Positions 570 to 26,002 of a DNA stretch of 61,111 bases are shown piece by piece. Numbering within the stretch: the first letter of the stretch is position 1; each line of letters starts with the position of its first letter. The notes beneath the pieces are model-generated. The model was not told where the DNA came from. It saw only the letters and a program-made list of their open reading frames with translations, and made no database searches. Origin of the DNA: Acholeplasmatales bacterium (GTDB lineage Bacteria > Bacillota_I > Bacilli_A > Acholeplasmatales > Anaeroplasmataceae); contig JAFSWG010000022.1 in NCBI GenBank assembly GCA_017444645.1, positions 1-61,111 of the forward strand, given 5' to 3'. The position numbers and the translations under genes were made by a program.

Positions 570-1523
570 TTAAGATATTTTTTGAACTAATTTATTTAAC
601 TCAACGTTTGGTTCAGTAACCATTGTAAGAGCTTCTTCAATTGGTGTTGCTTTTAACTTTCCATCAACAACTCCAACTGCTACACCTGATATTCCTTCTT
701 GTAAAAGGTCTACAGCATATTTTCCAAGTCTTGCAGCAAGTAATCTATCCTCAGGAGTTGGGTTACCTCCACGTTGGACATATCCTAATATAGTAGCTCT
801 GCATTCATAACCTGAATATTCTTCAACCTCTTTAGCAAGCTGATAAACATCAGTAAGATTCTCTGAAATGACAACAATGGCGTGTCTTCTTCCGTTAAGT
901 CTGTTTTCCTTTAATGACTTAAGTAATTTTTCTTTATCAAGTCCTGTTTCATTTGTAATGATATACTCAGCACCACAACATATACCTGAATATAGTGCTA
1001 AATCACCACAATGTCTTCCCATTACCTCGATAATAGAACATCTTTGATGAGATGATGATGTATCTCTTAATTTATCAATTGCTTCACATGCTGTATTAAG
1101 AGCAGTTGAAAAACCAATTGTATAATCACTAGATGCAATATCATTATCAATAGTACCAGGAACACCAATTGTTTTGATTCCCATCTCATGAAGACGTAAG
1201 GCACCTGTATAAGTACCATCTCCACCAATACATACTAATGCATCAATATCATACTTTTTTAATTTATCAACGGCAAGCTTTCTTACAGTTTCATACTTGA
1301 ATTCAGGAAGTCTTGCAGTACCTAATATAGTACCACCTTTTGATAATATTTCTGATACATCTTTTCTGGTAAACTCCACAAGCTTACCCTCAATCAATCC
1401 TCTATATCCATCATAGATACCGAATACTTGATCACCTGAGGCTAAAGCTGCACGAACTACTGCACGGATGCAGGCATTCATTCCTGGAGCGTCACCGCCT
1501 GAAGTTAGGACACCAATTCTCAT
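570..1523 (-). CDS. pfkA: ATP-dependent 6-phosphofructokinase
   Basis: Phosphorylates fructose 6-phosphate with ATP, committing it to glycolysis. At 317 residues it has the bacterial PfkA length. Visible motifs are the N-terminal glycine loop TSGGDAPGMN, GGDGT (residues 100-104) with the small Gly that marks ATP use, PGTIDND (122-128) with the catalytic Asp, and MGRHCGDLA. The RBS AGGAGT lies at 1533-1538, and a second AGGAGT-like copy lies about 13 bp further upstream, an odd tandem duplication of the leader. First gene of the pfkA-pyk unit, divergent from a second phosphofructokinase of the PPi type; the two promoters face away from each other within about 240 bp. Confidence 0.96.
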   Translation of the reverse strand: MRIGVLTSGGDAPGMNACIRAVVRAALASGDQVFGIYDGYRGLIEGKLVEFTRKDVSEILSKGGTILGTARLPEFKYETVRKLAVDKLKKYDIDALVCIGGDGTYTGALRLHEMGIKTIGVPGTIDNDIASSDYTIGFSTALNTACEAIDKLRDTSSSHQRCSIIEVMGRHCGDLALYSGICCGAEYIITNETGLDKEKLLKSLKENRLNGRRHAIVVISENLTDVYQLAKEVEEYSGYECRATILGYVQRGGNPTPEDRLLAARLGKYAVDLLQEGISGVAVGVVDGKLKATPIEEALTMVTEPNVELNKLVQKIS

Positions 1524-1679
1524 AAAATCATCACTCCTAAAAAATCACTCCGTATCATATTATAACACAAAAAGTCAAGGTATCAAGTTATTTTATTATT
1601 ATGTTTAATAATAATGTTATCGGGCTCAATTTTCTTATTTTATGAAAAGGCTTTACAAAGTCTAAAAGCCTGTAAGTCC

Positions 1680-1734
1680 TTGACTTTAAAATACAATTAA
1701 ATTAAAATTAGATTATACAAAGACTATAAGTCTT
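1680..1734 (+). promoter_or_regulatory. Promoter and palindrome ahead of the PPi-phosphofructokinase gene
   Basis: TTGACT at 1680-1685 and TAAAAT at 1703-1708 are separated by 17 bp. Just downstream sits a perfect 6-3-6 inverted repeat AAGACT-ATA-AGTCTT (1720-1734) in the expected transcribed leader, which could be an operator or a small RNA hairpin. Further AAGTC/GACTT copies occur at 1657-1662 and 1682-1687. The pfkA promoter on the other strand is likely TTGATA-N16-TATAAT near 1563-1590. Confidence 0.6.
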
Positions 1735-1761
1735 AAAAACGCATATTAAGGAGAATTACAT

Positions 1762-3012
1762 ATGAACAAATTAAAAGGTGCAGCTATTATTGGTCAATCA
1801 GGAGGACCAACATCAGTTATTAACGCTTCTGCTGCAGGTGTATTTATTGAAGCATTAAAACAAGAAAATATTACTCGTGTATATGGTGCATGCCATGGTA
1901 TTAAGGGTATATTAAATGAAGAATTCTTTGATATCAATCAAGAAGATATTAAAGAGCTTGAATTATTAAAAACTACTCCATCATCTTCAATTGGATCAGT
2001 TAGATACAAATTAAAAGATTTAAAGCAAGATGATTCTGAATACAAGAAATTATTAGAAGTATTCAAAAAGTATAACATTAGATATTTCTTCTACAATGGT
2101 GGAAATGATTCAATGGATACTTGTAACAAGGTATCTAAATTCTTCAAGGATTCAGGATATGAATGCTTCTGTATGGGAGTACCTAAAACAATTGATAACG
2201 ACTTAGCAGTTACAGATCACTGTCCAGGTTATGCAAGTGCTGCAAAATATGTTGCAACATCATTCATGGAATTAAAGTGCGATGCTACAGTTTACGATAC
2301 ACCAATGGTATCTGTAGTTGAAGTTATGGGTAGAAATGCTGGTTGGTTAACTGCTGCTGCTCAACTTGCAGTATACAAAGGATGTGGACCAGATTTAATC
2401 TACTTACCTGAAATTCCATTTGATCTAGATAAATTCTATGCAGATGTTGAAAAGAAATATAAAGAAAATAATGGTAAGGTTATTATTGCAGTATCTGAAG
2501 GTGTTAAGACTAAAGAAGGTAAATATGTACCTGAATTAGTTGCCGATGTTGCAGTTGACGCATTTGGTCATAAACAAATGGGTGGTACTGCTTCTGTATT
2601 AGCTGATTTATTAAAGAATAGATTAAATGTTAAAGTTAGACCTATCGAATTCTCATTATTACAACGCTGTGCACAACATCTAGCTTCTGCTATCGATGTT
2701 GAAGAAGCATTCAACGCTGGTGTCGAAGCTGTTAAAGCTGCATGCGAAGGTGTAACTGACTATATGATTGGTTTCAAGAGAGTTATGAAGAATGGTAAAT
2801 ACACTTGTGAATATATTAGAATTCCTCTTGAAGAAGTTGCAAATGCTGAAAAGAAAGTTCCACTTGATTGGATTACAAAAGATGGTACAGGCTTAACTCA
2901 AGCTTATGTTGATTATGCATTACCTCTAATTCAAGGCGACTGTAAAGCTCCACTTGAAGATGGCTTACCAAGATTTGCAAAATTAAAGAAAGTATTTGTA
3001 GAAAAAAAATAA
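1762..3012 (+). CDS. pfp: Pyrophosphate-dependent 6-phosphofructokinase
   Basis: Reversible phosphorylation of fructose 6-phosphate using pyrophosphate rather than ATP. The 416-residue protein belongs to the phosphofructokinase fold (GQSGGPTSVIN at the start, MGRNAGWLTAAAQLA). Instead of GGDGT it has GGNDS (113-117), and the catalytic loop is PKTIDND (141-147) with Lys where ATP enzymes have Gly; bulky residues at these two places are the accepted marks of PPi specificity. RBS AAGGAGA is well placed. It stands alone on the plus strand between a divergent pfkA and a bidirectional terminator. Having both enzymes allows an energy-saving, reversible glycolytic step. PPi use is inferred from motifs. 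Confidence 0.9.
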   Translation: MNKLKGAAIIGQSGGPTSVINASAAGVFIEALKQENITRVYGACHGIKGILNEEFFDINQEDIKELELLKTTPSSSIGSVRYKLKDLKQDDSEYKKLLEVFKKYNIRYFFYNGGNDSMDTCNKVSKFFKDSGYECFCMGVPKTIDNDLAVTDHCPGYASAAKYVATSFMELKCDATVYDTPMVSVVEVMGRNAGWLTAAAQLAVYKGCGPDLIYLPEIPFDLDKFYADVEKKYKENNGKVIIAVSEGVKTKEGKYVPELVADVAVDAFGHKQMGGTASVLADLLKNRLNVKVRPIEFSLLQRCAQHLASAIDVEEAFNAGVEAVKAACEGVTDYMIGFKRVMKNGKYTCEYIRIPLEEVANAEKKVPLDWITKDGTGLTQAYVDYALPLIQGDCKAPLEDGLPRFAKLKKVFVEKK

Positions 3013-4445: not shown

Positions 4446-4527
4446 AAAAGGATAAGACAACTAGTATTTCAACTAGTCATCTTATCCAGCTTGTCATTTC
4501 TAACGAATAACTCACCCTCCGATGAAC
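4446..4527 (-). promoter_or_regulatory. Structured leader with terminator, probable guanidine-IV (mepA) riboswitch
   Basis: On the minus strand the leader holds a short TTCA/TGA hairpin presenting CGGAGGG, a second hairpin GTTAT-loop-ATGAC, then GGATAAGA...TCTTATCC with an inner ACTAGT palindrome and a U-run (4445-4487), i.e. a transcription terminator immediately before the MATE start codon. The guanidine-IV class is known as an ON switch of this layout ahead of mepA-type MATE genes. I do not remember the consensus well enough to align base by base, so the class is a recognition, not a proof. Confidence 0.6.
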
Positions 4528-4562: not shown

Positions 4563-5414
4563 CTATTTTAAAATATTCAAATAATTTACTACACTATGAG
4601 CTGCAACATTACCTTCACCTACTGCCTTAGCGTATTGGTAAGGTCTTCCTGTACAATCTCCACATGCGAAAACACCATTTAAATTAGTTTTCATATTTCT
4701 ATCAACTACAATATGTCCCTCAACTGCTTCTAAGCCTGGAACTAATACTGCAGGTGATATAGATGCCTTTAACATAAATATACCATCTGATTCAATAATA
4801 GAATCTTTCAAATGTAATTTCATCTTCTTATTTTCTTTAGTAATCTTATTAGGCATTCCTTTTAATATTTCAACATTAGTAAGATTCATATCTATATCTT
4901 TATATAAACCAATATAATTAACCTTAGAAGCTAAAGAAGCTAAGTATTTAGCTTCATGTTCAAATTCTTTTGATGAAGCTACTACAGTAATTTCTTTACC
5001 TTTATATAAAAATCCATCACATGTAGCACAATATGATACACCTTGTCCTAATAATTCTATTTCACCTTCTACTGGCTTAATAGTTTCTACACCTAAACCT
5101 AAAATAATAGATTTAGCTTCGTATGTATCTTGCCCACAAAGTATAGCATAATGTGTAGATAAATCATATACTCCAGTTACCTGACGCTCTAATATTTCAA
5201 TACCCATATCATTTATTTGTTTAATAAATGCTTCTTTCATTTCTTTACCAGAAACACTAGATAATCCTGGATAATTTCTTATTTTTTCAGCACTATTAAT
5301 TTTATATGACAAGTTCTTAGGACCTATCCATAAAAAGTCTTTATTTAACTGTTTTAGTGTTAATGCAGCTGATATACCTGCCGCACCTGTACCAATAATT
5401 ATCACATCATGCAT
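4563..5414 (-). CDS. Thioredoxin reductase-like flavoprotein lacking the NADPH motif
   Basis: 283-residue FAD protein of the thioredoxin reductase family: FAD loop GTGAAGISAA at the start, redox pair CATC (129-132), C-terminal FAD motif GVFACGDCTG. The NADPH loop normally reading GGGxSA after the redox site is replaced by VVASSKEFEHEA (about 144-155), and the basic residues that bind the NADPH phosphate are not evident. Such loss marks the ferredoxin-dependent flavin thioredoxin reductases known from clostridia and other pyridine-nucleotide-independent members. It is the last gene of the thioredoxin-glutathione peroxidase unit, so its partner is probably the thioredoxin encoded two genes upstream. 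Ferredoxin as donor is inference. Confidence 0.85.
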   Translation of the reverse strand: MHDVIIIGTGAAGISAALTLKQLNKDFLWIGPKNLSYKINSAEKIRNYPGLSSVSGKEMKEAFIKQINDMGIEILERQVTGVYDLSTHYAILCGQDTYEAKSIILGLGVETIKPVEGEIELLGQGVSYCATCDGFLYKGKEITVVASSKEFEHEAKYLASLASKVNYIGLYKDIDMNLTNVEILKGMPNKITKENKKMKLHLKDSIIESDGIFMLKASISPAVLVPGLEAVEGHIVVDRNMKTNLNGVFACGDCTGRPYQYAKAVGEGNVAAHSVVNYLNILK

Positions 5415-5452: not shown

Positions 5453-5983
5453 TTATTTATTTAAAAGATTTTCAATCTTAGATTTTACATCTGTCATCTT
5501 ATCTACTGGTTCAAATCTTTCAACTAAATTTCCTTCTCTATCAATTAAGAATTTTGTAAAATTCCATCTAACTTCATTATCTTTTGCCTTACTTAGCTTA
5601 TTGATTAAGCCCATCTTTAATCCTTTTCCTTTATATGGAGCATTATCAGTTAAATATCTAAATAAATCACATTTATTTTCTCCAATTACTTCTACCTTCT
5701 TAAATCTTTTAAAAGTAGTATCATATTTTAAAGAACAAAATTGATTGATTTCAGCATCTGTTCCTTTTGCTTGTTCAGCAAATTGGTTACAAGGGAAATC
5801 TAGGATTTCAAAGCCTTTATCCTTTAATTCTCTATAAATAGCTTCAAGCTCTTTATATTGTGGTGTAAATCCACAACCTGTTGCTGTATTAACGATTAAT
5901 AATACCTTTCCTTCATATTCCTTTAAATCTTGTTTAGATCCATCTTGATTTAATACTTCAATTCCATAAAATTTTTCATTCAT
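5453..5983 (-). CDS. Glutathione peroxidase-family thiol peroxidase
   Basis: Reduces H2O2 and organic hydroperoxides; bacterial Cys members usually take electrons from thioredoxin, not glutathione. The 176-residue protein shows the peroxidatic Cys37 in NTATGCGFTPQY, the catalytic Gln71 (CNQFAEQAKGT) and the Trp-Asn pair at 140-141 (VRWNFTKF). The usual CNQFGGQE reads CNQFAEQA here. Cys83 or Cys105 are candidates for the resolving Cys. It sits between trxA (18 bp upstream) and the thioredoxin reductase, so all three parts of a peroxide-reducing chain are in one unit. Confidence 0.93.
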   Translation of the reverse strand: MNEKFYGIEVLNQDGSKQDLKEYEGKVLLIVNTATGCGFTPQYKELEAIYRELKDKGFEILDFPCNQFAEQAKGTDAEINQFCSLKYDTTFKRFKKVEVIGENKCDLFRYLTDNAPYKGKGLKMGLINKLSKAKDNEVRWNFTKFLIDREGNLVERFEPVDKMTDVKSKIENLLNK

Positions 5984-6001: not shown

Positions 6002-6307
6002 TTACTTTAATAATTCCTTTACTTTATTTTCTGGAATAAATCCTACATTCTTATTTTTTAATTTACCATCTTCAAATACTAATAGTGTAGGTATTGCTTC
6101 TACACCAAATTTGTAAGCAACATCTTCATTATCGTCAATGTTAACCTTTACTACTGTTACATCTGTTAAATCTTCAGATACCTTATCTACAATAGGTGAT
6201 AACATTTTACATGGTCCACACCATACTGCCCAAATATCTACTAATACCTTTTTATTATTATTAACTACTTCGTTTAATTCATTTAATCCATTAATTTCTT
6301 TAACCAT
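6002..6307 (-). CDS. trxA: Thioredoxin
   Basis: 101-residue classical thioredoxin with the active site WCGPCKM (Cys30, Cys33), preceded by VLVDIWAV, the buried Asp region, and with the cis-Pro in VEAIPTLLVF. Cytosolic disulfide reductant, here the presumed electron carrier from the adjacent reductase to the adjacent peroxidase. RBS GGAGGAATAG precedes ATG 6307. First gene of the trxA-gpx-reductase operon, under a promoter whose -10 box lies inside an OhrR-type palindrome. Confidence 0.96.
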   Translation of the reverse strand: MVKEINGLNELNEVVNNNKKVLVDIWAVWCGPCKMLSPIVDKVSEDLTDVTVVKVNIDDNEDVAYKFGVEAIPTLLVFEDGKLKNKNVGFIPENKVKELLK

Positions 6308-6328: not shown

Positions 6329-6385
6329 ATTGTATGCAATTTGTTATTGCAATTACATTGTATACAATTTATTTTAAAATGTCAA
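6329..6385 (-). promoter_or_regulatory. trxA promoter with OhrR-type operators
   Basis: TTGACA (6385-6380), 17 bp, TACAAT (6362-6357). The -10 box is half of the perfect palindrome ATTGTATACAAT (6357-6368); a near copy ATTGTATGCAAT lies 28 bp away (6329-6340). The sequence resembles the known OhrR box of Bacillus. Binding would block RNA polymerase. An ohrR-like gene lies 0.6 kb upstream. Confidence 0.75.
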
Positions 6386-6909: not shown

Positions 6910-7350
6910 TTAATTGTTATTATTTAAATTATTTAATATCTTATATAAAACCTTATACAATAACATAGCTTCTTCGTTAGATAATTGAATACAAGAACCC
7001 ATACTTTCAGGAACTGATAAAGCTTTATCTCTTAATTCCATACCTTTATCTGTAATAGTGATTTCTAGATTTCTTTCATCACTATCATTTCTTTTTCTTT
7101 CAATAAAGCCTTTATCTTCTAATTTTTTTAATAATGGAGTTAATGTTCCTGAATCTAAATAAATATATTCACCTAGCTTCTTAACATTCATTGATTTATG
7201 TTCCCACATAACCATCATACATATATATTGTGTATATGTTAAATCTAGTTTATCTAAAAATGGTTTATATTTTCTTGTTATTTCCTTAGCTGCCGCATAT
7301 AAAGGAAAACATAATTGATTTTCTAATTTTAAAGAATCATACTTATCCAT
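6910..7350 (-). CDS. ohrR: OhrR-like MarR-family peroxide sensor
   Basis: 146-residue winged-helix repressor. LENQLCFPLYAAAKEITR with Cys14 matches the reactive Cys of OhrR (Cys15 in Bacillus), and LTYTQYICMMVMWE, DSGTLTPLLKKLE and DERNLEITITDKG match the DNA-binding core. Known OhrR proteins are inactivated when organic hydroperoxides oxidise this Cys, releasing ohr-type peroxidase genes. No ohr gene is seen here; instead ATTGTATACAAT boxes sit on the trxA-gpx promoter and a partial copy sits in this gene's own promoter. I infer that it controls the thioredoxin-peroxidase operon and itself. Confidence 0.85.
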   Translation of the reverse strand: MDKYDSLKLENQLCFPLYAAAKEITRKYKPFLDKLDLTYTQYICMMVMWEHKSMNVKKLGEYIYLDSGTLTPLLKKLEDKGFIERKRNDSDERNLEITITDKGMELRDKALSVPESMGSCIQLSNEEAMLLYKVLYKILNNLNNNN

Positions 7351-7376: not shown

Positions 7377-7406
7377 ATTATATCAAAATCTATTGTATAA
7401 AATCAA
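7377..7406 (-). promoter_or_regulatory. ohrR promoter with half operator
   Basis: TTGATT (7406-7401), 18 bp, TATAAT (7382-7377). The spacer contains ATTTTATACAAT (7403-7392), one good half of the OhrR-type palindrome, suggesting weaker autoregulation. Confidence 0.65.
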
Positions 7407-7433
7407 ATTATAAAAACACTTTTATTGAAAAAA

Positions 7434-7457
7434 GGATTTGACAGTTAAGTCAAATCC
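7434..7457 (-). terminator. Intrinsic terminator after rubrerythrin
   Basis: GGATTTGAC-AGTTAA-GTCAAATCC with a T run on the minus side and also T-rich on the plus side. Confidence 0.85.
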
Positions 7458-7464
7458 CTATTTT

Positions 7465-8124
7465 TTAATAATTTTCAGCATTAATTTCAAAATATGCTTG
7501 AGGATGATTGCAGACAGGACATACGTCTGGTGCTTTTGTTCCTACTACAATATGACCACAATTTCTGCATTCCCATACTTTTACTTCAGATTTAGAGAAT
7601 ACTTCTTGTGCTTCTACATTGTGAAGTAAAGCTCTATATCTTTCTTCATGGTGCTTTTCTATTTCTGCAACAGCTCTAAATTTTTTAGCTAATTCTATGA
7701 AGCCTTCAGCTTCAGCAGTTTTAGCAAATCCTTCATACATATCAGTCCATTCATAATTCTCGCCATTAGCGGCCTCTTCTAAATTTTCAGCTGTATTTCC
7801 AATACCATTTAATTCTTTAAACCACATTTTAGCATGTTCCTTTTCATTATCTGCAGTTTTTAAAAATAATGCTGATATTTGTTCATAGCCTTCTTTTTTA
7901 GCAACACTTGCAAAATATGTATATTTGTTTCTTGCTTGAGATTCACCAGCAAATGCGGCCTCTAGATTCTTTTCAGTTTGAGTACCAGCATATTTATTAG
8001 TTTTAACATCTTCTTTAATCTCAACTAATTTATCACCTTTTGCTTTACACTTTGGACAAATTGGTTCTTGTCCATCTTCTACTTCAAATACTTCACCACA
8101 AATTAAACATTTAAATTTTCTCAT
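7465..8124 (-). CDS. Rubrerythrin with rubredoxin-type domains at both ends
   Basis: Non-haem diiron peroxidase that reduces H2O2 in anaerobes. 219 residues in three parts: an N-terminal zinc/iron ribbon ([10 protein letters not shown]...CPKCKAKG, about 1-35), the ferritin-like four-helix diiron core with [13 protein letters not shown] and EKHHEERY ligand motifs (about 45-175), and a C-terminal rubredoxin ([10 protein letters not shown]...[12 protein letters not shown]). Classical rubrerythrin has only the C-terminal and 'reverse' rubrerythrin only the N-terminal head; both are here. Single gene between terminators with its own promoter. A redox partner such as NADH:rubredoxin reductase is not in the window. 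Confidence 0.93.
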
Positions 8125-8271: not shown

Positions 8272-9339
8272 TTATTCATTATCACTCAATACTTTTTTAA
8301 CTTCTTTTGATTTTAAATTAGTATGATAAAAATCTTTCATACTACATCCGGCTCTACCTCCACCTGCACACGCACATGCGCAAGCACAAGCACAGGCACA
8401 ACCTCTACCACCACTGTGGTGACTTCCACTGCCTACATTTGTTGGCGGATTAATTGGAGTTCCAATTTTTGAGACTCCTCCGTTATGATATCTTCTTCTT
8501 GTTCCACCAAAAAACCACCAATAGTGATAATAGTCTGGTCCATAAAACCCTCTTTCAGCTTTATAAGGATCTCTTGTTAGTTTATTATATAACACAACAA
8601 ATAAAATAACTAATACTATTCCACAAAGTAATAATAATGGTACTAGCCAAGGATATTTTTCATACTCACTTGTATAAGTCTTATTAGGATCTATTGTTTC
8701 AAATACTTCTTTTAAATAAGACACATTTACAGTTAAATAATCACCGTATCCTAAAGGTGATTCTAATTGATAATAACCATCAATTATTGGTGATTGAATA
8801 GATGATTCTAAGAAATTATTAACATTTGTAGCATTCCATCTTAATATACACTTTGTTACTTTAATGTCATGAAAATAACCAGGATTATAATTATAATAAA
8901 TATAATTTTTCTCTCCTTCAGTTGATACAACATCTCTTATTTGATACATATAAGACTGATTGTATATGAAACTAAAATCTACTGTTTGATTTTTATAATA
9001 TTTTCTATCAAAATCTATTCTAATAAATGATCCATTATCTGAAGAATATTTAATCTTTCTAATAGTAGATGTTAAAGGCTTTATATTTTCAGCATGAAAA
9101 TTAGGAATACCTATTTTAACCCAAGATAATGGTCCTTCACTAGTATCATTTAAAACAGTCCATGTAATATCAATTCTTATATCTAGTGAGCCATCAGTAA
9201 AATTAGGATCTACAGTTATAACATATGAATCAATTCTATCCAAATCATCAGATTTAGCTTCTGTTTTATTAATAAATGAAAATAATAATACAAAAGCTAA
9301 TAAAAATAATAACATTAACTTATTAATTATTCTTTTCAT
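8272..9339 (-). CDS. Membrane protein with six Cys-Ala repeats in its tail, putative radical SAM substrate
   Basis: Not a family I can name. I start it at ATG 9339 because AGGAGC lies just upstream of it; an in-frame ATG at 9357 would put that site inside the gene. The 355 residues comprise a signal peptide (1-28), an extracytoplasmic domain rich in beta strands (about 30-230, faintly like DUF2207), one membrane helix (about 234-256) and an inside tail with aromatic/Gly/His-rich stretches. The tail carries CACACACACACA (about 314-325) followed by GGGRAGCSMKDF. Codons alternate among TGT/TGC and GCC/GCT/GCA/GCG, so the repeat is kept at protein level and is not a microsatellite. Its start overlaps the radical SAM gene by 17 bp, implying coupled translation and an enzyme-substrate relation (inference). 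Confidence 0.75.
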   Translation of the reverse strand: MKRIINKLMLLFLLAFVLLFSFINKTEAKSDDLDRIDSYVITVDPNFTDGSLDIRIDITWTVLNDTSEGPLSWVKIGIPNFHAENIKPLTSTIRKIKYSSDNGSFIRIDFDRKYYKNQTVDFSFIYNQSYMYQIRDVVSTEGEKNYIYYNYNPGYFHDIKVTKCILRWNATNVNNFLESSIQSPIIDGYYQLESPLGYGDYLTVNVSYLKEVFETIDPNKTYTSEYEKYPWLVPLLLLCGIVLVILFVVLYNKLTRDPYKAERGFYGPDYYHYWWFFGGTRRRYHNGGVSKIGTPINPPTNVGSGSHHSGGRGCACACACACACAGGGRAGCSMKDFYHTNLKSKEVKKVLSDNE

Positions 9340-10699
9340 TTTCAAGCTCCTTTTCATTTAATGGACATCCAGATTTTAATTTGGAAATATTTTTTCTAAA
9401 TAATGTAGTTTCTTTATCATTCCATATAGAACTAAATTTATCATTTAAAAGATTTCCAAATGATTTACCATCTAACCAGCTTTGACAAGGTATTAAATCA
9501 CCACTTGGAGATATAGCCATATTAGATAGGGTCGCACCACACATTGGTGGATTCATATTATATTCTTTAAAGAATTCATCTTCTATCCATCCTGGAGATG
9601 TAAATTTAATATCTAAATCATTTTCTCTACAATATCTTATTGCTTCAACTAATATTTCTTTTAATTCTTCTTTAGATAATCTACCTTTAATATTTTCTTT
9701 ATTAGTTGCATTACCTGTTAATATTAATCCAGAACATGTAAAATATCTAATACCAAATTCTTTATTCGCATATTTAATAGTTTCTAAATAATCTCTATTT
9801 AAATCACAAAGTGGAGTATTTATACTAACTAATAATTTTGCTTCAATTGCATTTTTAATACCTTTACATGTCTTATCAAAGCCATTGGCACCTACTAAGA
9901 TATTATGAATCTCCTTTTTATGTGAATAGAATGTTACTTGTACTGCATCTAGACTTGCATCATATAAATCATTACATAATGATTTTGATAATAATTGACC
10001 ATTGGTATTTAATCTTGTTACAAACCAAGATGAATATTTAACTAATTCAACTAAATCATTTCTTAATGTAGGTTCACCACCTGTAAAAGTTATTTGTGGT
10101 ATTCTTGCTTCCTTTAGCTTATCTATTATATTCTTCCATTCATCAGTAGATAATTCTTTTTCTTTACCCTTAGGTTGATTTGCTGCATAACAATTTAAAC
10201 ATTTTTGATTACAGCCCCAATTACCATTTTTCTCCATAGATGAGATTAATAAATCCATTCTATGAGGTGCTGACATATATTTAGAATAATCCTTTAGTGA
10301 TAAATAACCAATTTCAGTTTTAACTGGTTCGTTTTTAGCAACATGTAATAATATATCTATTATTTCATTTAAGTCATCTACAAACATCTTTCTATCTGTC
10401 TTAGGATATATTTCTTTCATTGTTTTAGAAACAATATTAACTGCATCTTTTATATCATTATTAGATATATTCTTTCCTTCATATTTATTTATTTCATTTA
10501 TAAATTCACGAAGTAAAATAGCCCATCCCATACAAATAGGTAATAAATTTTCTCCATTTAAAATTACTACCCATGGAATACCAGGCTTTATCTTTTTAGG
10601 TGGAACTAAAAAGATTCTTACAACTCCTGGTCCATATGGATCAAATGTAACATGGGATACTTCATTAATATTTTTTAAATATTCCTTTAATTTACTCAT
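9323..10699 (-). CDS. Radical SAM enzyme with SPASM-like C-terminus, peptide/protein-modifying type
   Basis: 458 residues from ATG 10699 (a TTG 15 bp upstream is less likely). The core shows the [4Fe-4S] motif CNQKCLNC (Cys163, 167, 170) in NWGCNQKCLNCYAANQ, then ITFTGGEPTLR, the SAM-binding GGEP. The C-terminus has CGATLSNMAISPSGDLIPCQ and a later Cys in SGCP, like the auxiliary-cluster SPASM/twitch region of RiPP maturases. The first 130 residues, with a small strand-rich start and helices (GWAILLREF), might be a PqqD-like substrate-recognition domain. Its only operon partner is the Cys-Ala repeat membrane protein, whose Cys-rich tail would face the cytosol where this enzyme works. A thioether or other Cys-linked modification is a plausible product; not proven. 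Confidence 0.88.
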   Translation of the reverse strand: MSKLKEYLKNINEVSHVTFDPYGPGVVRIFLVPPKKIKPGIPWVVILNGENLLPICMGWAILLREFINEINKYEGKNISNNDIKDAVNIVSKTMKEIYPKTDRKMFVDDLNEIIDILLHVAKNEPVKTEIGYLSLKDYSKYMSAPHRMDLLISSMEKNGNWGCNQKCLNCYAANQPKGKEKELSTDEWKNIIDKLKEARIPQITFTGGEPTLRNDLVELVKYSSWFVTRLNTNGQLLSKSLCNDLYDASLDAVQVTFYSHKKEIHNILVGANGFDKTCKGIKNAIEAKLLVSINTPLCDLNRDYLETIKYANKEFGIRYFTCSGLILTGNATNKENIKGRLSKEELKEILVEAIRYCRENDLDIKFTSPGWIEDEFFKEYNMNPPMCGATLSNMAISPSGDLIPCQSWLDGKSFGNLLNDKFSSIWNDKETTLFRKNISKLKSGCPLNEKELENEKNN

Positions 10700-10746
10700 T
10701 GTATACCCCCCCAAAACAAAAATATTATATCATGAAAAAAATAAAA

Positions 10747-19419: not shown

Positions 19420-20829
19420 TTATTTGTTTGATAAATATTCATCAATTGCCTTAGCAGCAACCTTACCAGCACCCATAGCTGAAATAACTGTTGCAGCGCC
19501 TGTTACAGCATCTCCACCAGCATATACGCCTTCTCTTGAAGTTAAACCATTTTCATTAACAATTATTCCACCATGGTTATTTACTTCTAAGCCCTTAGTT
19601 GTAGCTTTGATTAATGGGTTAGGTGATGTACCGATTGAAATGATAACTGCATCAGCATCAATTACGAATTCTGAACCAGGAACTGGTACAGGACGTCTTC
19701 TACCCTTTTCATCTGGAGCACCAAGTTCCATCTTAATGCACTTAACACCAGTTACGAAACCATTCTTTGGATCTCTCTTATCTTCAGGATTATCATATCC
19801 AAGAATTTCAACTGGGTTACATAGAAGATTGAATTCAATTCCTTCTTCCATTGCATGTTCAACTTCTTCTTTTCTAGCAGGTAATTCTTCCATACTACGA
19901 CGGTATACAATATGTACTTTATCAGCACCTAAACGTAGAGCAGTTCTTGCTGCATCCATTGCAACGTTACCACCACCAACTACGATTACGTTTCCGCCCT
20001 TCATAATAGGTGTATCTGGATTTTCTTTGTAAGCTTTCATTAAGTTACTTCTTGTTAAGAATTCATTTGCTGAATAAACGCCTTTATATCCTTCACCAGG
20101 AATATTCATAAAGTTAGGTAAACCAGCACCTGAACCAACGAATACAGCTTCAAAGCCCATATCAAATAATTCATCAATTGTTAATGTCTTACCAATTACA
20201 ACGTTAGTTTCAACATCAACACCTAATTTCTTTAATGTATCTACTTCTTTAGCAACAATTGATTTAGGTAATCTGAATTCAGGAATACCATAAACTAATA
20301 CACCACCAGCTTGGTGTAATGCTTCATAAATAGAAACCTTATAGCCCTTCTTAGCTAAGTCACCAGCACAAGTTAATCCTGAAGGACCAGAACCAACGAT
20401 TGCAACCTTATGACCATTAGATGCAGGAACTTCTACAGCAACATTGTCATTTGCGTTGTGATAATCTGCAACGAATCTTTCAAGACGACCAATACCAACT
20501 GGTTCGAATTTAATACCTAATGTACATTTAGATTCGCATTGAGATTCTTGAGGACATACACGTCCACATACTGCAGGTAATGATGAAGTCTTATTGATTA
20601 CTTTATAAGCACCTTCAAAATCACCTTCCTTGATTCTTGAGATAAAATCAGGAATTTGAATATTAACAGGACAACCATTAACACATGGTCTGTTCTTACA
20701 ATTTAAACATCTTTTTGCTTCTTCAATTGCAATTTCAGCAGTATAGCCTAAAGCAACTTCTTTAAAATTATGAGCTCTAACCTTTGGGTCTTGAGTAGGC
20801 ATTTCATGCTTTTTAGGATCGATAGCCAT
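19420..20829 (-). CDS. nfnB: NfnB, NADPH-binding subunit of NAD-dependent ferredoxin:NADP oxidoreductase
   Basis: 469 residues of the glutamate-synthase small-subunit family. An N-terminal two-[4Fe-4S] domain (CLNCKNRPCVNGCPV and CGRVCPQESQCESKC, about 40-120) is followed by FAD (GSGPSGLTCAGDL) and NADPH (VVGGGNVAMDAARTALRLGA) Rossmann folds and the closing YAGGDAVTGAATVISA. Its partner gene, NfnA, ends at the base where this one starts (TAATG). With NfnA it bifurcates electrons between NADPH, NAD+ and ferredoxin. Without the partner it could be read as GltD, but no large GltB subunit is present. Confidence 0.9.
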   Translation of the reverse strand: MAIDPKKHEMPTQDPKVRAHNFKEVALGYTAEIAIEEAKRCLNCKNRPCVNGCPVNIQIPDFISRIKEGDFEGAYKVINKTSSLPAVCGRVCPQESQCESKCTLGIKFEPVGIGRLERFVADYHNANDNVAVEVPASNGHKVAIVGSGPSGLTCAGDLAKKGYKVSIYEALHQAGGVLVYGIPEFRLPKSIVAKEVDTLKKLGVDVETNVVIGKTLTIDELFDMGFEAVFVGSGAGLPNFMNIPGEGYKGVYSANEFLTRSNLMKAYKENPDTPIMKGGNVIVVGGGNVAMDAARTALRLGADKVHIVYRRSMEELPARKEEVEHAMEEGIEFNLLCNPVEILGYDNPEDKRDPKNGFVTGVKCIKMELGAPDEKGRRRPVPVPGSEFVIDADAVIISIGTSPNPLIKATTKGLEVNNHGGIIVNENGLTSREGVYAGGDAVTGAATVISAMGAGKVAAKAIDEYLSNK

Positions 20830-21692
20830 TACCTGTTACCTCCAACTTCTTTTTTGAATAAATTACAAGTTTCTTCATGTTTCTTTCTTTCAAAATCAAA
20901 ATACATTCTTCCTCTTGACATAGCCTCATCGAAATCAACTTCGTAACCATTGAAATCAGGACCATCAACACATGCGAACTTAGTAACTCTCTTACCATCT
21001 TGATTTAATGTTAGACGGCAACCACCACACATACCTGTACCATCAATCATAATTGGGTTCATTGATACTGTTACAGGAACATTATATGGCTTTGCAGTTA
21101 ATGTAACGAACTTCATCATGATAACTGGTCCGATAGTAATAATCATATCAAACTTCTCACCAGCATCTAACATTTCCTTTAGAGGAACTGTTACGTTACC
21201 TGATCTTGCATATGAACCATCATCAGTCATAACAACTAAGTTATCTGAACATGCTTTAAATTCATCTTCAAGAATAACTAAATCTTTATTTCTAAATCCA
21301 ACGATAGATGTAACCTTAGCACCAGCTTCATGTAATGCTTTAGCTACTGGCCATGCGATAGCACAACCTACACCACCACCAACTACACATACATTCTTTA
21401 AACCATCAATGTGAGTTGCAACACCTAGTGGTCCAACAAAATCTTGGATATAATCTCCAACCATTTTATGATTTAATTTTTCAGTTGTAGAGCCTACAAT
21501 TTGGAAAATAATTTTAACTGTTCCAGCCTTTTTATCTGAACCAGCAATTGTAAGAGGAATTCTTTCTCCCTCTTCGTCTACTCTTAAGATAATGAATTGA
21601 CCAGCTTTAGCCTTATTAGCTACTAGTGGTGCTTCAATATCTAATTCAGTTACTGTAGGATTTAATTCTCTACGATTAACAACCTTATACAT
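20829..21692 (-). CDS. nfnA: NfnA, NAD-binding subunit of NAD-dependent ferredoxin:NADP oxidoreductase
   Basis: 287 residues like ferredoxin-NADP reductase and dihydroorotate dehydrogenase electron-transfer subunit. FAD-binding barrel (residues 1-95, ERIPLTIAG), NAD domain with VVGGGVGCAIAWPVAKAL, and a C-terminal [2Fe-2S] site built from MCGGCRLTL and KFACVDGPDF. Known NfnAB complexes are cytosolic and couple NADH and reduced ferredoxin to NADPH formation. The gene stands next to hydABC, so both bifurcating complexes share one locus. Promoter TTGTTA-N17-TAAAAT lies upstream. Confidence 0.92.
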   Translation of the reverse strand: MYKVVNRRELNPTVTELDIEAPLVANKAKAGQFIILRVDEEGERIPLTIAGSDKKAGTVKIIFQIVGSTTEKLNHKMVGDYIQDFVGPLGVATHIDGLKNVCVVGGGVGCAIAWPVAKALHEAGAKVTSIVGFRNKDLVILEDEFKACSDNLVVMTDDGSYARSGNVTVPLKEMLDAGEKFDMIITIGPVIMMKFVTLTAKPYNVPVTVSMNPIMIDGTGMCGGCRLTLNQDGKRVTKFACVDGPDFNGYEVDFDEAMSRGRMYFDFERKKHEETCNLFKKEVGGNR

Positions 21693-21824: not shown

Positions 21825-23606
21825 CTAATCATTATCAATCTTTGGATATTTTTCACGCTTTGCGTTATATGAAGTATGAAGATACTTGTGAGCTAAATGA
21901 GAACCTGGTTCTTTTAAGAAATCCTTATAAAGCATTTGAATATCTTTATTTAAATGTGAACGTCTAACAGGTTTATTTCTATCTTCATCATATAATACCT
22001 TAGCACGCTTTTGAATATATGTTCTCATAATATCATCATCTTCATTTGGTAAGAATATTTCTTTAACGAATGGTTGACCACCACCATTAATACATCCTCC
22101 TGGACAACCCATGATTTCGATGAATTGATATTTAGATTTACCTGCTTTAATTTCTTCAAGTAAAATCTTAGCATTTTTCATACTTGATGCAACAGCTACA
22201 TTAATCTTTGAACCATTAATTTCATATGTTGCTTCTTTAATACCTTTTAATCCTCTTACTGGTTCTAAATCTATTGGCTCTAACTCTTTACCAGTTAAGA
22301 TATGATAAGCTGTTCTTACAGCTGCCTCCATAACTCCACCAGTTGCACCAAAGATAACACCAGCACCAGTGTATTCACCAAGTAAATCTTGGTCAAAGTC
22401 TTCATTAGGAAGCTTCTTCCAAGTAATACCAGCACGTCTAATTAACTTAGCTAATTCTCTTGTTGTTAATACTACATCAACATCAGGAATACCATCAACT
22501 GCGTTTTGAGGACGCTTATTTTCATATTTCTTTGCAATACATGGCATTATAGATACAACACAAATCTTTGATCTATCAATGTTATGCTTTTCTGCATAAT
22601 AAGATTTAATTATCGCACCTACCATCTCATGAGGGCTCTTGCAGCTTGATAGATGTGGTAATAATTCAGGATAATAATATTCAATATAATTAATCCATCC
22701 TGGTGAACATGATGTAATCATTGGAGATGGAGCATTTGTAGTTAGTCTATGAACTAATTCATTTGCTTCTTCCATGATTGTTAAGTCTGCACCAAAGTTA
22801 GTATCAAATACTCGATAGAATCCTAAACGATGTAATGCAGCAACCATTTTACCAGTTCCTGATGTACCAATAGGTTCACCAAATTCTTCAGCAATTGCAG
22901 CTCTTACAGCAGGAGCAGTTTGAACGATAACAATTTTTCCATGTTGGAAAGCATCATCTAATTTATCGATTTCAGAATGTTCTTGTAATGCACCTGTAGG
23001 ACATACATTTACACATTGACCACATTGAATACATGGTACATTTGCAAATGATCTATTTTCACTTGGGGCAACAATTGTTTTGAAACCTCTATTCTCAAAT
23101 CCAAGGATACCAATACCTTGAACTTCTTTACATGTTTCAATACATCTACCGCATAAAATACACTTAGATGTATCTCTAATTAGTGATGGAGCTAAATCAT
23201 CATATGTTGAAGGAGTCTTTGAACCTTCATACATTCCTTCTCTAGCACCTACTAATCTAGAAACCTCTAATAACTCACATTTACCATTCTTTTCGCAAGC
23301 TTGGCAGTTCATTGAGTGATTAGATAATAATAATTCAACACTAGTTCTTCTTGCTTCAACAGCCATAGGATCTGTAATAGATACCTCAAGGCCTTCTCTA
23401 ATTGGATAAGCACAGCTTGGAACTAATCTTCTTTCACCTTTAACTTTAACAAGACATACACGACATGATGCAAGTGAGCATCTACCATCCATCCAAGAGC
23501 AAAGAGAAGGGATTTGATAACCACATTTTCTAGCAGCTTGTAATAATGTTAAAGAATCATCAACTTGATAATCATGACCTTCAATTTTGATATTTACTAT
23601 TGCCAT
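21825..23606 (-). CDS. hydA: HydA, catalytic subunit of electron-bifurcating [FeFe]-hydrogenase
   Basis: 593 residues from ATG 23606 (GGGGTG upstream; a GTG inside that site is less likely). N-terminal [2Fe-2S] domain (CSWMDGRCSLASCRVC), a NuoG-like His/Cys [4Fe-4S] segment (HSMNCQACEKNGKC), two [4Fe-4S] ferredoxin motifs (CILCGRCIETC and CIQCGQCVNVC), then the H-cluster domain with TSCSPGW, MPCIAKK and EIMGCPGGCINGGGQ, and the small-subunit-like tail. Makes or uses H2. With HydB and HydC it is the group A3 trimer that oxidises NADH and reduced ferredoxin together. Maturases HydE/F/G are not in the window and must be elsewhere. Confidence 0.95.
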   Translation of the reverse strand: MAIVNIKIEGHDYQVDDSLTLLQAARKCGYQIPSLCSWMDGRCSLASCRVCLVKVKGERRLVPSCAYPIREGLEVSITDPMAVEARRTSVELLLSNHSMNCQACEKNGKCELLEVSRLVGAREGMYEGSKTPSTYDDLAPSLIRDTSKCILCGRCIETCKEVQGIGILGFENRGFKTIVAPSENRSFANVPCIQCGQCVNVCPTGALQEHSEIDKLDDAFQHGKIVIVQTAPAVRAAIAEEFGEPIGTSGTGKMVAALHRLGFYRVFDTNFGADLTIMEEANELVHRLTTNAPSPMITSCSPGWINYIEYYYPELLPHLSSCKSPHEMVGAIIKSYYAEKHNIDRSKICVVSIMPCIAKKYENKRPQNAVDGIPDVDVVLTTRELAKLIRRAGITWKKLPNEDFDQDLLGEYTGAGVIFGATGGVMEAAVRTAYHILTGKELEPIDLEPVRGLKGIKEATYEINGSKINVAVASSMKNAKILLEEIKAGKSKYQFIEIMGCPGGCINGGGQPFVKEIFLPNEDDDIMRTYIQKRAKVLYDEDRNKPVRRSHLNKDIQMLYKDFLKEPGSHLAHKYLHTSYNAKREKYPKIDND

Positions 23607-23617
23607 TTTCTTCACCC

Positions 23618-25516
23618 CTATTCCTTAATAATTGCTCCAAATTTACATCCAGCTACACATGTACCACACTTGATACATTTAGCTTGATCAATTGCCATTG
23701 CTGGTTTCTTCTTACCAGGAGCAATGTAATCAGTAGGATGAATTGCATCAACTGGACAATTTCTAGCACATAGTCCACAGCCAATACATGAATCCTTCTT
23801 AATAGTAAATTGCATTAAATTCTTACATACACCAGCATCACATTTCTTATCGATAATGTGTCTTTCATAAACTTCACGGAATTTAGATAATGTAGATAAA
23901 ACTGGATTTGCAGCAGTTTGACCTAAACCACAAAGTGAACCAACTTGAAGAGATTTTGATAATTGTTGTAATTTTTCAATATCTTCCATTTCACCTTTTC
24001 CATCAGTGATTCTATCTAAGATTTCTAATAATCTCTTAGTACCAATTCTACATTGAGAACATTTACCACATGATTCGTCACAAATAAATCCTAAATAGAA
24101 TTTAGCAACGTCAACCATACAGTTATCCTCATCCATTACGATAGCTCCACCAGAACCCATCATTGAGCCCTTAGCAATTAAGTTATCATAATCAATTGGT
24201 GTATCAAGGTCATTGATAGTTAAACATCCACCTGATGGACCACCAGTTTGGATAGCTTGGAATTTCTTATTATTTGGAATTCCTCCACCAATATCATAAA
24301 CTAATTCTCTTAGTGTAGTTCCCATAGGAACTTCTACTAATCCTACATTCTTAACCTTACCACCTAAAGCGAATACCTTAGTACCTTTAGATTTTTCAGT
24401 ACCGATTGCGGCAAATTTAGCAGCACCTTCTCTTAAAATATAAGGAACATTTGCTAAAGTTTCTACGTTATTAATAATTGTTGGTTTACCCCATAAACCT
24501 TTTACAGCAGGGAATGGTGGACGTGGTCTAGGCATACCTCTCTTACCCTCAATTGAATTTAATAAGGCAGTTTCCTCACCACATACGAATGCACCAGCAC
24601 CAAGTCTAATATGAACTCTAAAGTTGAAGCCAGTACCTAAAATATTATCACCTAATAAACCAAGCTTTTCTGCTTGTTCAATTGCTATTCTTAATCTAGA
24701 TACAGCAACTGGATATTCAGCTCTTACATAGAAATAACCATCAGATGCACCAATTGCATAACCAGCAATTAACATACCTTCGATTACATTAAGTGGGTTA
24801 CCTTCAAGGATTGATCTATCCATGAATGCACCTGGGTCACCTTCATCACCATTACAAACAACGTATTTAACATCATTCTTTTGGTCAAGAGCAAATTGCC
24901 ACTTTCTACCTGTAGGGAATCCTCCTCCACCACGGCCTCTTAAACCAGATGCTAATACTTCGTTAACAACTTCTTGTCTAGACATCTTTAAAGCCTTAAC
25001 TAAGCCTTTGTAAGCATCATAGCCTAAAGCTTCATCAATATCCTCTGGGTTAATTACACCACAACCATGTAATGCAATACGCATTTGTTTTTGATAGAAA
25101 GGAATATCTTCTTGTTTTTGACATTTCTTTCCTGTATTTGGTTCTACATATAATAATCTTTCAACTATTGTATTACCAACGATATCAGAATCCATTATTT
25201 CCTTTACATCAGCAACTGTTACGCCACGATATAAAGTATCTTCTGGATATATTTTAACGAAAGGTCCTTGTGAACAGAATCCAAAGCAACCAACCTTGTT
25301 CACCTTTACCTTTCCTTCTAGTTTTCTTTCTTTTATTTCTTTTTCAAATTCCTCGATAATAGCTTTTGAATCACTAGATAAACATCCTGTACCACCACAA
25401 ATTGTTATTGTACGATATTTAGCAGTACCATCTAGTTTTCCTTTAAATACTCCAAAGCATTCAGCAATTTTCTTATCTAATTCTTGTTCATTTTTAATTT
25501 GTACTGTTTTTCCCAT
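23618..25516 (-). CDS. hydB: HydB, NuoF-like FMN subunit of bifurcating hydrogenase
   Basis: 632 residues in three parts: an N-terminal thioredoxin-like [2Fe-2S] domain (CGGTGCLSSDS...CFGFCSQGP, about 40-100), the NuoF core with NADH/FMN loop GLRGRGGGGFPTGRKW and GPSGGCL, the cluster motif CGKCSQCRIG, and a C-terminal pair of [4Fe-4S] motifs (CIGCGLCARNC, CIKCGTCVAGC). This is the standard layout of HydB, the site where NADH electrons are split. ATG preceded by GGAGTAA; four bp after hydC. Confidence 0.95.
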   Translation of the reverse strand: MGKTVQIKNEQELDKKIAECFGVFKGKLDGTAKYRTITICGGTGCLSSDSKAIIEEFEKEIKERKLEGKVKVNKVGCFGFCSQGPFVKIYPEDTLYRGVTVADVKEIMDSDIVGNTIVERLLYVEPNTGKKCQKQEDIPFYQKQMRIALHGCGVINPEDIDEALGYDAYKGLVKALKMSRQEVVNEVLASGLRGRGGGGFPTGRKWQFALDQKNDVKYVVCNGDEGDPGAFMDRSILEGNPLNVIEGMLIAGYAIGASDGYFYVRAEYPVAVSRLRIAIEQAEKLGLLGDNILGTGFNFRVHIRLGAGAFVCGEETALLNSIEGKRGMPRPRPPFPAVKGLWGKPTIINNVETLANVPYILREGAAKFAAIGTEKSKGTKVFALGGKVKNVGLVEVPMGTTLRELVYDIGGGIPNNKKFQAIQTGGPSGGCLTINDLDTPIDYDNLIAKGSMMGSGGAIVMDEDNCMVDVAKFYLGFICDESCGKCSQCRIGTKRLLEILDRITDGKGEMEDIEKLQQLSKSLQVGSLCGLGQTAANPVLSTLSKFREVYERHIIDKKCDAGVCKNLMQFTIKKDSCIGCGLCARNCPVDAIHPTDYIAPGKKKPAMAIDQAKCIKCGTCVAGCKFGAIIKE

Positions 25517-25519
25517 AAA

Positions 25520-26002
25520 TTACTCCATGCCCTTTTCTCTATATTCTTTAATAATATTAGGTACATCTGATAATTTTACCTTTGGATATACCTTACCATT
25601 AATTGAAATAGCTGGAGCAATACCGCAAGCACCAATACATCTCAATCCATCAAGTGTAAATAAACCATCTTTTGAAGTTTGACCTACCTTGATACTTAAC
25701 AAATCACTAAATTTGTCTAGAACATTTTGTCCACCTTTAACATAGCATGCTGTACCGATACAAACACCGATAACATATCTTCCCTTTGGTTGTAATGAGA
25801 AGAATGAATAGAAAGTTACTACTCCGTAAATTTCACTTACAGGAATGCCTGTTTCTTGACTAATTACTTCTTGTACTTCAAGAGGTAAATAGCCATACTC
25901 ATTTTGTACGTCGGCTAAAATAAGCATTAAAGGAGATGGCTCATTTTTGTAACGTGCACAAATCTCTTTAATCTGATTTACCGCTTCTTTTCTTAAAAAC
26001 AT
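25520..26002 (-). CDS. hydC: HydC, NuoE-like [2Fe-2S] subunit of bifurcating hydrogenase
   Basis: 160 residues. Helical N-terminus (EIC...ILADVQNEYGYLPLEVQEVIS) and a thioredoxin-like [2Fe-2S] domain with CIGTACYVKGG and CIGACGIAPAI, the family's four Cys. First gene of hydCBA. It lies under a strong promoter whose upstream side carries an array of cre-like boxes, so the operon is probably tuned to carbon supply. Confidence 0.94.
   Translation of the reverse strand: MFLRKEAVNQIKEICARYKNEPSPLMLILADVQNEYGYLPLEVQEVISQETGIPVSEIYGVVTFYSFFSLQPKGRYVIGVCIGTACYVKGGQNVLDKFSDLLSIKVGQTSKDGLFTLDGLRCIGACGIAPAISINGKVYPKVKLSDVPNIIKEYREKGME

Follow-up and report, generated by a model that had tools for sequence, protein, structure and literature searches.

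Gene organization at the locus

The window, i.e. the whole 61,111-nucleotide stretch of DNA analysed here, from a gut bacterium of the Acholeplasmatales, carries on its minus strand a compact group of three genes. The first encodes a thioredoxin, TrxA, with the active-site sequence WCGPC (6002-6307), and lies 18 nt ahead of a gene for a Gpx-family protein (5453-5983), which in turn lies 38 nt ahead of the last gene (4563-5414, with an ATG start). Judged by sequence, tree and structural model, the product of the latter (283 aa) is a thioredoxin reductase (TrxR) of the ferredoxin-dependent flavin type (FFTR). The group closes with a terminator-like hairpin of 16 pairs followed by a T run (4450-4487, minus strand). 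The Gpx protein is closest to yeast HYR1/Gpx3, with the peroxidatic and resolving cysteines of that type aligned in CGFTPQY and FCSLKY, and is predicted to use thioredoxin. A search of the genus for GshF, rather than for GshA or GshB singly, gave no homologue reaching the cut-off.

Upstream of the operon are ohrR (6910-7350, minus strand), coding for an OhrR-type MarR regulator, and a gene for a small SHOCT-like protein; further out lies a rubrerythrin gene (7465-8124, minus strand), also related to peroxide defence, which forms a separate unit with a terminator at 7432-7459. The initial annotation had connected the reductase with peroxide defence, and this tie proves to be tighter than it was held to be, because the trx, gpx and fftr genes share one operon with an OhrR-box promoter.

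Two other gene pairs in the window were noted. At 8272-10714, a radical SAM protein (9323-10714) adjoins a membrane protein whose C-terminus is GGRGCACACACACACAGGGRAGCS, and the two look like a Cys-repeat modification pair. At 570-3012, two dissimilar phosphofructokinase-like genes lie adjacent on opposite strands.

Sequence motifs and identity of the reductase

In the translation of the 4563-5414 ORF (all motifs on the minus strand), the redox-active disulfide CATC is formed by C129 and C132 (5019-5030), the N-terminal FAD motif GTGAAG occupies residues 8-13 (5376-5393), and the C-terminal FAD motif GDCTGRPYQYAKAVGEG, with PYQxxK of the FFTR type, occupies residues 252-268 (4611-4661); all three had been read as intact in the initial annotation. 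The replacement of the GGGxSA loop, likewise claimed there, is borne out by alignment with a canonical NADPH-dependent TrxR (NTR, PDB 5uwy), whose segment VVGGGDSAVEEA aligns with VVASSKEFEHEA (residues 144-155; 4950-4985), at the position where NTRs carry the NADPH loop VVGGGxSAxEEA. A second NADPH motif, HRRDxxR, which had gone unmentioned, is absent as well, and IGLYKDIDM (168-176) is found there. CATC, invariant in 42 FFTRs, and most glycines of the FAD motifs are unchanged across the 42 aligned homologues, and the dN/dS values against five relatives of the genus are 0.11-0.20. The gene thus evolves under purifying selection, and is neither a chance ORF nor a decaying NTR.

The best PDB matches of the protein in a phmmer search are the C. 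acetobutylicum FFTRs, aligned over the full length with 272, 268 and 257 bits and 46-47% identity, while the best NTR reaches only 114 bits. In a tree of 80 TrxR sequences, from which the Gloeobacter enzyme GvFFTR was left out, the protein groups with 6gna and 6gnc in a 100/100 clade, and the NTRs form a separate clade (100/97). An AF2 model built from the 42-row alignment (pLDDT 89.6) superimposes on 6gnc with a TM score of 0.96 over 282 columns, and reaches at most 0.59 with NTRs in either conformation. The two domains are predicted in the open arrangement of 6gnc; as FFTR structures were within the AF2 training data, this conformation is no independent evidence. The likeness to the clostridial FFTRs suspected in the initial annotation is therefore upheld by database matches, phylogeny and predicted structure, and the ORF, by its sequence, encodes an enzyme of this known kind, which by family membership would take its electrons from ferredoxin and be inactive with NADPH.

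The C-terminal tryptophan tail that stacks on the FAD was not found in the protein, which ends in ...NYLNILK. CaFFTR2 likewise lacks it (PMC8469568), and the tail is confined to cyanobacterial FFTRs; it is thus not a defining feature of the clostridial type. Nearly all FFTRs have the lysine of PYQxxK, as do many enzymes of another type, TRi, of the GTDB family; NTRs have threonine at this position. As a flavin-site feature common to FFTR and TRi the lysine is only a lead, with valine in the Desulfovibrio vulgaris enzyme DvTRi and the motif not found in 15 TRi.

One could alternatively see in the protein a TrxR that has diverged but remains dependent on NADPH or NADH, its altered loops still binding a nicotinamide nucleotide, given that its overall fold is that of NTRs and that the NTR model TIGR01292 still matches it with 175 bits. 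We consider this very unlikely, as the score lies far under the curated cut-off of 343 bits, neither the pyrophosphate loop nor the HRR motif is present, the 100/100 branch is shared with biochemically characterised FFTRs, and the open arrangement as in 6gnc is predicted. Nor is an assignment to TRi, the NAD(P)H-independent TrxR of anaerobes typified by DvTRi (PDB 5nii), whose donor is unknown (PMC5627308), to be given any real weight. TRi enzymes are similarly short and NAD(P)H-independent, and they are the usual TrxR of this GTDB family; however, the TRi motif TQ/NGK was not found in the protein, which has IGLYKD at the equivalent place, the 24 TRi rows of the tree form a clade of their own (100/98) outside which the protein falls, and the model agrees with 5nii at a TM score of only 0.64 and 26% identity.

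Promoter and putative OhrR operator

The operon is preceded by a promoter of the form TTGACA-17-TACAAT (6357-6385, minus strand). An OhrR-box-like operator, TACAATGTAATTGCA (6348-6362, minus strand), resembles the published OhrR box TACAATTNAATTGTA (PMC6034001); nowhere else does the assembled genome match TACAATNNAATTGYA exactly. Two copies of an operator palindrome, recorded without strand, lie here, ATTGTATACAAT (6357-6368), which overlaps the -10 box, and ATTGTATGCAAT (6329-6340); a degenerate one, ATTGTATAAAAT (7392-7403), is located upstream of ohrR. The OhrR-type protein is a homologue of B. subtilis OhrR (154 bits) and has the sensing cysteine in LENQLCF, where the PDB construct has a serine.

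Across the genus, 15 of the 16 FFTR operons have the palindrome ATTGYATACAAT, with at most one mismatch, in their promoters; other loci show two occurrences in 218 kb as background. Three TRi operons contain Gpx, Trx and OhrR; two of these also have the palindrome, and the third (L128) has a more degenerate copy. Upstream of the eight remaining TRi genes of the genus the palindrome was not found. Looser matches stand at the background level: at two mismatches the window contains 43 operator palindromes versus 51.6 expected, which is no better than chance, and at one mismatch the OhrR box is at background genome-wide. What speaks for the operator is therefore that it matches exactly and that its position in promoters is conserved, not the number of sites. 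With both a regulator carrying the sensing cysteine and an OhrR box at the operon, OhrR would be expected to bind there, and the operon to be induced by organic peroxides.

Thioredoxin reductases in the genome, the family and the class

In the assembly to which the window belongs (1.59 Mb, 73.6% complete), BLAST and TIGR01292 searches found no second TrxR. Another TIGR01292 match (C68:27508-28386) was rejected, being an oxidoreductase without CxxC next to GlpA. The NTR cut-off was exceeded in 12 of 14 control genomes and in none of the 55 genomes of the GTDB family, so that a second canonical TrxB, which according to the initial annotation would have made this enzyme a side branch, was found neither in the assembled 73.6% nor, above that cut-off, in the family genomes. 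The FFTR is probably the only thioredoxin reductase of the cell, though a second one could sit in the unassembled quarter.

A sample of 395 genomes of the class contained seven with FFTR (four from the genus of the window, three from elsewhere), and within the order, matches at the FFTR level are confined to this genus. Another genus of the order has genomes of 0.5-0.9 Mb. Bacilli have been described as having a single TrxB, and non-NTR enzymes as occurring in Clostridia and Negativicutes (PMC10880999); the genus is an exception to this NTR-only picture of Bacilli.

Some related proteins deviate in other ways. In genome G035 (91% complete) no recognisable TrxR was found, its only TrxR-like protein being a flavoprotein (L123) in which MNAS replaces CxxC. 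Five genomes of the genus have extra TrxB-like proteins (L119, L120, L121, L122 and L175) with GGGNSA intact and IIQD where the HRR motif would be; these possibly use NADH or another partner.

Exchange of FFTR and TRi within the genus

The other reductase of the family has the sequence CDGFFYR and an FTNG/FTDG loop, finds DvTRi as its best PDB match, and agrees with the signature TQ/NGK published for TRi. All 27 genomes of the genus contain exactly one of the two enzymes, FFTR in 16 and TRi in 11, and never both. On the RpoB tree these states need at least four changes, which are forced by supported branches, and in the TrxR tree the FFTRs of the genus form two separate lineages, one near Clostridium FFTR and the other near those of rumen Clostridia. 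TRi, like FFTR, is also found in operons, here in the order Gpx-TRi-Trx-OhrR (TRi loci include L124, L128, L129, L141 and L144): it takes the place of FFTR in sister genomes, three times in the Gpx/Trx/OhrR cassette. The shared ancestry of the MAGs and binning errors qualify this pattern and what is drawn from it.

These observations suggest that FFTR and TRi fill one functional slot that either enzyme can occupy. Since the replacements number at least four, the two never coexist, and both are found in OhrR/Gpx/Trx cassettes, one may go on to suppose that thioredoxin reduction in this family no longer draws on NAD(P)H at all and that TRi shares the low-potential donor of FFTR, a reading that we regard as nearly balanced, leaning slightly against. 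The discoverers of DvTRi argued on sequence grounds against ferredoxin as its donor (PMC5627308). For this family the exclusive and repeated exchange points in the opposite direction and makes ferredoxin a testable donor for TRi. Many near-complete TRi-only genomes yielded no short flavodoxin, so flavodoxin is not an obligate donor of TRi there; for the same reason we hypothesise, contrary to that earlier view, that ferredoxin is the likeliest one. The ferredoxin search covered the genus only.

Electron supply

The window encodes a group A6 [FeFe] hydrogenase, HydABC (21825-26002, minus strand), and an NfnAB-type transhydrogenase (19420-21692, minus strand), which bear on the ferredoxin pool and on ferredoxin/NADPH exchange, respectively; both had been named in the initial annotation and are confirmed. 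Pyruvate:ferredoxin oxidoreductase (PFOR) is found in all 31 near-complete genomes of the family and as fragments in the assembly of the window. A small clostridial-type 2[4Fe-4S] ferredoxin is encoded by most genomes of the genus, including all the near-complete ones. In the assembly of the window, 73.6% complete, no such gene was found, but a short flavodoxin is present.

Flavodoxin could thus also be a candidate donor to the window FFTR. That this pyridine-nucleotide-independent enzyme should be fed mainly by flavodoxin instead of ferredoxin, as the gene content of this assembly would favour, seems improbable to us: two other genomes with FFTR, G009 (92% complete) and G023 (91%), have a small ferredoxin and no short flavodoxin, and in vitro it is ferredoxin that gives electrons to the FFTR family members studied (PMC12796991, PMC8469568).

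Proposed pathway and comparison with known systems

We consider it highly probable that the locus as a whole encodes an OhrR-repressed pathway in which FFTR, probably the sole TrxR, passes electrons from ferredoxin to thioredoxin and on to Gpx. Reduced ferredoxin would be supplied by PFOR, with HydABC and NfnAB exchanging electrons with the pool, and would pass single electrons to the FAD of FFTR; the FAD would reduce the CATC disulfide following a domain swing, and CATC would reduce the neighbouring thioredoxin. The thioredoxin may then re-reduce the two-Cys Gpx, which would destroy organic hydroperoxides, while OhrR is predicted to hold the operon off until its cysteine is oxidised by an organic hydroperoxide.

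FFTRs have so far been described from Clostridia, Negativicutes and cyanobacteria. The present enzyme, apparently the sole thioredoxin reductase of its host, a Bacilli lineage, widens this range. Its operon unites a ferredoxin-type reductase, a thioredoxin and a peroxidase in one unit with predicted peroxide regulation. Furthermore, the switching between FFTR and TRi offers a concrete and cheap way to test what reduces TRi. DvTRi itself belongs to another clade than the window FFTR and has other motifs.

The closest known enzymes are CaFFTR and CaFFTR2 of C. acetobutylicum (6gna, 6gnc and 6gnd), which have in common with the window FFTR the CATC disulfide, the loss of both NADPH motifs, GDCxGxPYQxxK and the open fold (predicted in the latter). 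The hosts differ, Clostridia in the one case and a Bacilli lineage of Acholeplasmatales-like MAGs in the other; unlike CaFFTR, the window enzyme is apparently the sole TrxR, its operon has a Gpx gene and an OhrR-type operator, and its nucleotide loop is further eroded (VVASSKEF versus IVGYNKEA). The Gloeobacter FFTR (5j60, 6xtf) is also ferredoxin-dependent and of open conformation, with a TM score of 0.82 to the model, but shares only 27% identity and bears the tryptophan tail. What is new here is the setting: the FFTR gene is the last of an operon that starts with Trx and Gpx and follows an OhrR box, and ohrR lies upstream. A Lachnospiraceae MAG of another class shows the same module as FFTR-Trx-Gpx-OhrR at low identity (L067, 6001-8180). 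In C. difficile, TrxA1-TrxB1 similarly pairs a thioredoxin with an FFTR in an oxidative-stress operon, but that organism also has NTRs and its trxA1B1 is under sigma-B, whereas in the window the operon has a Gpx gene, its control is predicted to be of the OhrR type, and the searches turned up no NTR (PMC10880999). B. subtilis OhrR (PDB 1z91, 1z9c) is a homologous regulator with the sensing cysteine and a similar box; unlike there, the operon next to the regulator gene in the window carries the genes for Trx, Gpx and FFTR in place of Ohr.
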